Source of the DNA: Cytophagia bacterium
GTDB taxonomy: Bacteria; Bacteroidota; Bacteroidia; Cytophagales; Spirosomataceae
Length of the DNA: 64,000 nt
Assembly: GCA_004293645.1 (NCBI GenBank)
Contig: REAB01000051.1
Location: 1 to 64,000, forward strand
Direction: 5' to 3'
The notes beneath the pieces are model-generated. The model was not told the origin of the DNA. It saw nothing but the letters and a program-made list of their open reading frames with translations, and searched no databases. Below are positions 54,078 through 54,388 of the stretch, piece after piece (positions within the stretch are counted from its first letter, which is position 1; each line of letters starts with the position of its first letter). A program made the position numbers and the translations under genes.

Positions 54078-54125
54078 TTTTCTAATTTACAGCAGGTTAT
54101 AAACTTTATTTTCTAAAACGGAGTG

Positions 54126-54188: not shown

Positions 54189-54350
54189 AAAAAAAGGGCA
54201 AGCGATACACACTTGACCTTCATCAGATTTGACCAGTCTAAACACAAGACCGATACCAAAAAGTGAGTTCAAATGTGGTTTCTCTGAAGAGACCTTCATT
54301 TAATTTTGTACTGTTACTTTTGCCCGTGATTTCAATTCCCCTTCGTAATG
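54189..54350 (-). ncRNA. Candidate structured non-coding RNA (~160 nt), 6S-like in size and layout
   Basis: A complete transcription unit can be read on the minus strand. A promoter TTTG (54388-54385), 20 bp, CACCTTTG (54364-54357) precedes it. The transcript would begin near 54350. A closing stem GGGCAA (54325-54320)/TTGCCC (54201-54196) brackets ~120 nt, and the second arm is followed by seven T residues (54195-54189) as in an intrinsic terminator. Inside are two further hairpins: GGTCTC...GAGAAACC (around 54291-54274) and CGGTCT...AGACTG (around 54251-54233). A long closing stem around an open middle and this length recall 6S RNA, but I cannot confirm the family. A 42-codon frame (ATG 54299) reads through the terminator, so coding is less likely. 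Confidence 0.5.
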
Positions 54351-54356
54351 GGAGTG

Positions 54357-54388
54357 CAAAGGTGCGGTATTTTTATTGGTAAAACAAA
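54357..54388 (-). promoter_or_regulatory. Promoter of the candidate ncRNA
   Basis: Minus strand: TTTG (54388-54385), 20 bp, CACCTTTG (54364-54357). It differs from TAnnTTTG only at the first base. A plus-strand TAATTTTG at 54301-54308, facing the other way, could serve the next gene. Confidence 0.5.

Follow-up and report, generated by a model that had tools for sequence, protein, structure and literature searches.

A conserved leader RNA with a predicted terminator-antiterminator switch upstream of the rplC ribosomal protein cluster in Spirosomataceae

The locus upstream of rplC

The window analysed here, a stretch of 64,000 nucleotides from a Cytophagia bacterium (contig REAB01000051.1), carries on its minus strand a ribosomal protein cluster in the order rplC-rplD-rplW-rplB-rpsS-rplV-rpsC-...-secY-map-infA-rpsM-rpsK-rpsD-rpoA-rplQ, with gene names assigned by reading the translations of the open reading frames (ORFs). 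The first gene of the cluster is rplC, encoding L3 (53457–54077 in the ORF list), and from 54077 the ORF lists show the genes, infA included, extending to about 38564 without large gaps. The rpsJ gene of the same genome is located on a separate contig, apart from the rplC cluster, where it follows a fusA-like gene, the two being separated by an unrelated ORF of ~238 amino acids.

Inspection of the sequence upstream of rplC reveals that the segment 54388–54189 (minus strand) consists of a promoter, ~160 transcribed bases, a hairpin and a run of seven T. The promoter, P1 (54357–54388, minus strand), is of the Bacteroidota −33/−7 type, with TTTG (54388–54385) separated by N20 from CACCTTTG (54364–54357), and transcription of the leader from P1 would be expected to start near 54350. 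The intrinsic terminator (54189–54220, minus strand) comprises a hairpin that pairs 54220–54210 with 54204–54194 and a T7 tract (54195–54189). A second promoter, P2 (54126–54157, minus strand), is situated 3′ of the terminator and combines TTTG (54157–54154), N20 and TAATTTTG (54133–54126). Both promoters and the terminator had been recognized in an earlier sequence-only reading of this DNA, which also estimated the RNA at about 160 nt and had the second promoter start the ribosomal operon; all are present as it described, the length is right, P2 does precede rplC, and relatives of the window genome support the assignment.

In an alignment of 50 distinct leader copies, taken from the regions upstream of rplC, a −7 box is present 46–71 nt 5′ of the motif in 33 copies, which thus have a promoter of their own, whereas the remaining 17 have the end of rpsJ directly upstream instead. 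The −7 box of P2 is found at all 50 loci, in every case behind the terminator. Because rpsJ sits on another contig in the window genome, it is evident that the leader has been kept together with rplC and with its own promoter. We note that a CCTGCT element (54091–54096, minus strand) lies inside the 5′ UTR of P2 and begins 19 nt before the rplC start; CCTGCT stands 19–25 nt 5′ of the rplC start codon at 83 of 83 distinct loci with this type of leader, here termed A-type.

A conserved core and three helices with shared arms

The window genome falls into the same family as Runella, Dyadobacter and Spirosoma-like genomes, here called Spirosomataceae after the named loci. In Spirosoma-, Dyadobacter- and Runella-like genomes alike, the core and the terminator are conserved 5′ of rplC. 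The consensus among relatives reads RRUGAAGGUC, a variable hairpin, GAAACC(A/G)CAYYUGA and, further 3′, GGUCA(G/A)(A/G)UG followed by a loop, the 3′ arm and a U tract. The conservation in relatives that the sequence-only reading had proposed to look for is therefore present, with the core and three helices kept in the 50 copies.

The 5′ part of the core forms a putative sensor hairpin (54270–54302, minus strand), in which stem P1 pairs 54302–54297 with 54275–54270 and encloses the P2 hairpin (54294–54277) with its variable apex. Stem P1 has five core pairs, four of them between RRUG and CAYY, and is present in 50 of 50 sequences, and the internal-loop nucleotides GAAGGUC and GAAACCA are conserved. 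The basal pairs of the P2 hairpin are invariant; its apex differs in length and sequence and is mostly still a hairpin, with a mean of 2.5 pairs in the apical stem vs 0.58 in shuffles. A start codon opens the core in all 50 copies (GTG in 35, ATG in 15), as would be expected if a ribosome on a short frame beginning [AG]UG AAG GUC chose between the hairpins by leader-peptide attenuation. However, the phase is not maintained from one side of the hairpin to the other (28/12/10 copies), the peptides range from 3 to 62 residues with no common sequence after MKV or VKV, and pairing with U or C in stem P1 accounts for the purine at the start of the first codon, so that translation of such a peptide is highly improbable as the basis of the element. 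The same examination disposes of the 42-codon frame, whose conservation the sequence-only reading had named as evidence against an RNA: neither the phase nor the peptide is conserved.

The 3′ strand of stem P1 leads a second life in the predicted antiterminator, where CAYYUGA of the core pairs with UCARRUG. In the window, the 5′ arm ACAUUUGA (54269–54276, minus strand) overlaps the 3′ arm of stem P1, while the 3′ arm UCAAGUGU (54209–54216, minus strand) also supplies most of the 5′ arm of the terminator, which is complementary to CAYYUGA. The six core pairs (A37-U100 to A42-U95, the 5′ arm with 54216–54211 in the window) can form in 50 of 50 sequences and the outermost seventh pair, C36-G101 (54275–54210), in 48. 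Sliding the register lowers pairing to 24–38%, compared with 90% in the native one. Of the two nucleotides at the end of the arm, G41 is invariant (50/50) and A42 is kept in 46 copies and replaced by G in 4; the antiterminator pairs both positions in all 50 sequences. It is the only helix that involves A42, and G41 is only partly engaged in stem P1. Few changes occur within the antiterminator and its covariation does not exceed that of shuffles; since most columns hardly vary, the shuffles are uninformative either way. The window copy itself departs from the others by a single pair in each helix, G-C to A-U in stem P1, C-G to U-A in the antiterminator and G-C to A-U in the terminator, a concerted change of the kind that sharing of the arms would demand.

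The terminator hairpin is paired in 96.5% of the cells of the alignment, with 6 of its 11 pairs changed on both sides, a score reached by none of 500 shuffles. A scan for terminator-like structures is weak when taken alone (2 found vs 0.8 expected); the case is carried by conservation. Simple shielding of the rplC operon against transcription from an upstream rpsJ/str operon or from promoter P1, by an unregulated terminator and with some other role or none for the core, would agree with the succession of terminator and conserved P2 at all 50 loci, and with rpsJ directly preceding the element at 17 of them. Yet such insulation would require neither a conserved core 5′ of the terminator, one of whose arms can pair with the terminator's 5′ arm, nor a dedicated promoter just in front of it. 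Moreover, A97 is invariant (50/50) even in the 12 copies where it is mismatched in the terminator, as pairing in the antiterminator would demand; we consider simple insulation decidedly unlikely.

Folding of the two states was computed with ViennaRNA. The 164-nt RNA of the window is not predicted to be more stable than shuffled sequences (z = −0.04), and single-sequence folding therefore cannot carry the case. In transcripts truncated after the 5′ arm of the terminator, the predicted probability of the antiterminator averages 0.97 and is at least 0.83 in all 50 copies, with 0.85 in the window. For the full transcripts, the mean energies of the 50 copies are −40.9 kcal/mol with the terminator and −39.6 kcal/mol with the antiterminator, so that the two states are near balance and individual species fall on either side. 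For the full-length RNA of the window, the terminator state is the more stable one by about 4 kcal/mol, which counts against reading it as an attenuator. Overall, the predicted bistability between terminator and antiterminator looks like that of an attenuator.

Distribution and relation to other RNAs

A covariance model of the leader gives strong matches (over 70 bits) in 108 of 200 genomes of the family, with one strong copy each, and matches 118 of the 200 at E ≤ 0.001, 10 of these only weakly. The A-type leader occurs in 18 of the 36 genera of the family, and no strong match lies outside the family in 291 genomes of the order. At all 83 distinct loci inspected, the rplC start follows the core by 202–263 nt, and the leader holds its place before rplC with or without a preceding rpsJ. 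Weak second matches of the model (34–44 bits) are seen in the window genome and others; the seven that were examined as possible extra copies are other terminator-type hairpins, and none contains the core.

The sequence-only reading had taken the element for an independent RNA gene resembling 6S or 6S-Flavo RNA, or for a new family, with a closing stem GGGCAA/TTGCCC. The letters of this stem do exist, but just 4 of the 50 loci, among them that of the window, have an equivalent 6-nt complement, and TTGCCC represents the 3′ arm of the local terminator hairpin (GGUCAAGUG...CGCUUGCC). The Rfam covariance search that it had recommended returned no family in the window at the gathering score, and a permissive search of the stretch gave three chance-level matches (E 0.8 to 3.2) and no 6S at E ≤ 5. 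Similarly, no known Rfam ribosomal leader scored above gathering in the window or at the loci of 15 relatives. The 6S-Flavo model (RF01685), which recovers its RNA from 17 of 148 Bacteroidota genomes, finds none in the window genome, and conversely the leader model finds nothing at genuine 6S-Flavo loci. Like 6S-Flavo, the leader is a Bacteroidota RNA of 100–160 nt with its own promoter, but it lacks a match to that model as well as a conserved long closing stem. Assignment to 6S or 6S-Flavo (RF00013, RF01685) was thus rejected, as neither model matches and no long closing stem with an open central bubble is conserved; rather, the conserved helices are P1/P2, the antiterminator and the terminator. 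Of the two families proposed, it is the new one that stands, with 50 aligned copies and no match in Rfam.

A small RNA gene in its own right, whether 6S-like or otherwise acting in trans, that is merely situated beside the cluster would account for the promoter P1 of 33 copies, the strong terminator and the rplC promoter that comes after it, and a terminated RNA of ~160 nt should accumulate. Against this stand the single strong copy per genome, the position 202–263 nt before rplC at all 83 loci inspected, the retention of that place after rpsJ where the promoter is missing, the conserved antiterminator and the failure of the 6S-Flavo model, which works elsewhere in the phylum. An independent gene is consequently unlikely. 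The sequence-only reading had also held the terminator to argue against a simple leader, whereas the conserved antiterminator would make termination conditional.

In ten other genera the same place is occupied by a B-type leader, recognizable by GGUUGGCAGAACU ... GUGUCAGAACUG ... UGAAUGCCCA ... UAAGCU. It lies about 200–400 nt 5′ of rplC in one copy per genome, is strongly conserved and unrelated to the A-type, and its conserved blocks comprise GGUUGGCAGAACU ... GUGUCAGAACUGRUAYUGG ... UGAAUGCCCA ... UUAAGCUACACAAGA ... UCUUGUCGCUU. A- and B-type leaders were never seen together before rplC in one genome, and no CCTGCT was seen at the corresponding place in the B-type loci examined. A C-type rplC leader is found in genus g27 and Leadbetterella; like the A-type, it keeps a GAAGUC-(hairpin)-GAAACCA core inside a covarying stem P1, here of 8–10 pairs, at the same place, but the sequence of this stem is unrelated, no matching terminator is present and other conserved sequence follows over about 300 nt. 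Further conserved blocks of the C-type are GUCUCCGAAAGC, ACAGGAAUC, AAGGUAACAAGGAAU and AAGUUGG..CCAACCUCUGG. Rfam matches neither B- nor C-type leaders, and we did not find either described.

In the leader of the E. coli S10 operon, L4 acts by Rho-independent attenuation or termination (PMC10931766). The leader described here resembles it in belonging to the same gene cluster, in ending, ahead of the first structural gene, in an intrinsic terminator and in the expected sensing of a ribosomal protein; it differs in standing before rplC, not rpsJ, in its explicit antiterminator and in the second promoter behind the terminator. The leader model does not match the E. coli S10-rplC region (NC_000913, 3452500–3453500). 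The candidates of Eckert and Weinberg (2020), as presented in the main text, include Bacteroidia L13 and S4 leaders and an Archaeoglobi L4 leader before rplC (PMC7247131), with which the present RNA shares its nature as a lineage-restricted, conserved structured RNA 5′ of a ribosomal protein operon; the main text of that paper, to which this comparison is confined, contains no rplC leader in Bacteroidota. Since 6S-Flavo, the E. coli S10 leader and Rfam are unmatched and that main text lists none before rplC in this phylum, the leader constitutes a new RNA family before the rplC cluster.

A putative attenuator of the rplC-rplQ cluster

As judged from the sequence, the element is a ribosomal protein leader, being a conserved structured RNA 5′ of a ribosomal protein operon, and its intrinsic terminator and mutually exclusive antiterminator, both conserved and the latter predicted by folding, are those of an attenuator. 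We therefore favour, with a probability of roughly 0.8, a transcription attenuator that acts in cis from the 5′ leader of the rplC-rplQ cluster and serves feedback control of the S10-spc-alpha genes. In the nascent RNA, the antiterminator would form first, allowing the polymerase to read on from promoter P1 or the adjacent rpsJ into rplC. A ligand that holds the P1/P2 hairpin would keep the CAYYUGA arm from becoming free, such that the terminator forms and transcription derived from P1 or rpsJ stops. We infer a response to a ligand because the letters of the sensor internal loop are conserved, also in the C-type where the covarying stem P1 is unrelated. The ligand would most likely be one of the cluster's own ribosomal proteins when present in excess, resulting in negative feedback, and by analogy with E. 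coli L4 may be a candidate. The best pattern matches between the leader and 23S rRNA are mostly no better than shuffles, and with no 23S similarity above chance the putative ribosomal-protein ligand is without sequence support.

A resemblance to 16S rRNA suggests a different ligand. The pattern RRUG-AA-G over C-R-CAYY is similar to nucleotides 1488–1494 over 1407–1412 of 16S rRNA (E. coli rrsB), including two A opposite one A/G, and this two-strand core pattern, noticed post hoc, occurs at 1488/1407 in native register. The mean local alignment score is 22.2, compared with a null mean of 20.3 and a maximum of 21.9 in 30 shuffles, a difference of modest significance, likewise post hoc and uncorrected for the search. 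If the sensor core imitated the decoding site in helix 44, it would sense a decoding-site ligand, such as initiation factor 1, a drug or a small-subunit assembly factor, and not a 50S protein; infA, encoding initiation factor 1, belongs to the rplC-rplQ cluster. We regard such mimicry as very doubtful.

For the proposed attenuator, promoter P2 behind the terminator would provide a floor of transcription that escapes attenuation. As P2 follows the terminator at all loci, attenuation alone cannot shut the operon off and sets only part of the supply.

To our knowledge, how the largest ribosomal gene cluster is controlled has been worked out in only a few groups. The leader described here most likely tunes ribosome production, and represents a leader that is specific to a lineage and whose switch is visible and directly testable. 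Within a single family, the leader RNAs that precede this cluster in sister genera are unrelated to one another. This opens the Bacteroidota to studies of how ribosomal leaders turn over and to searches for their ligands.
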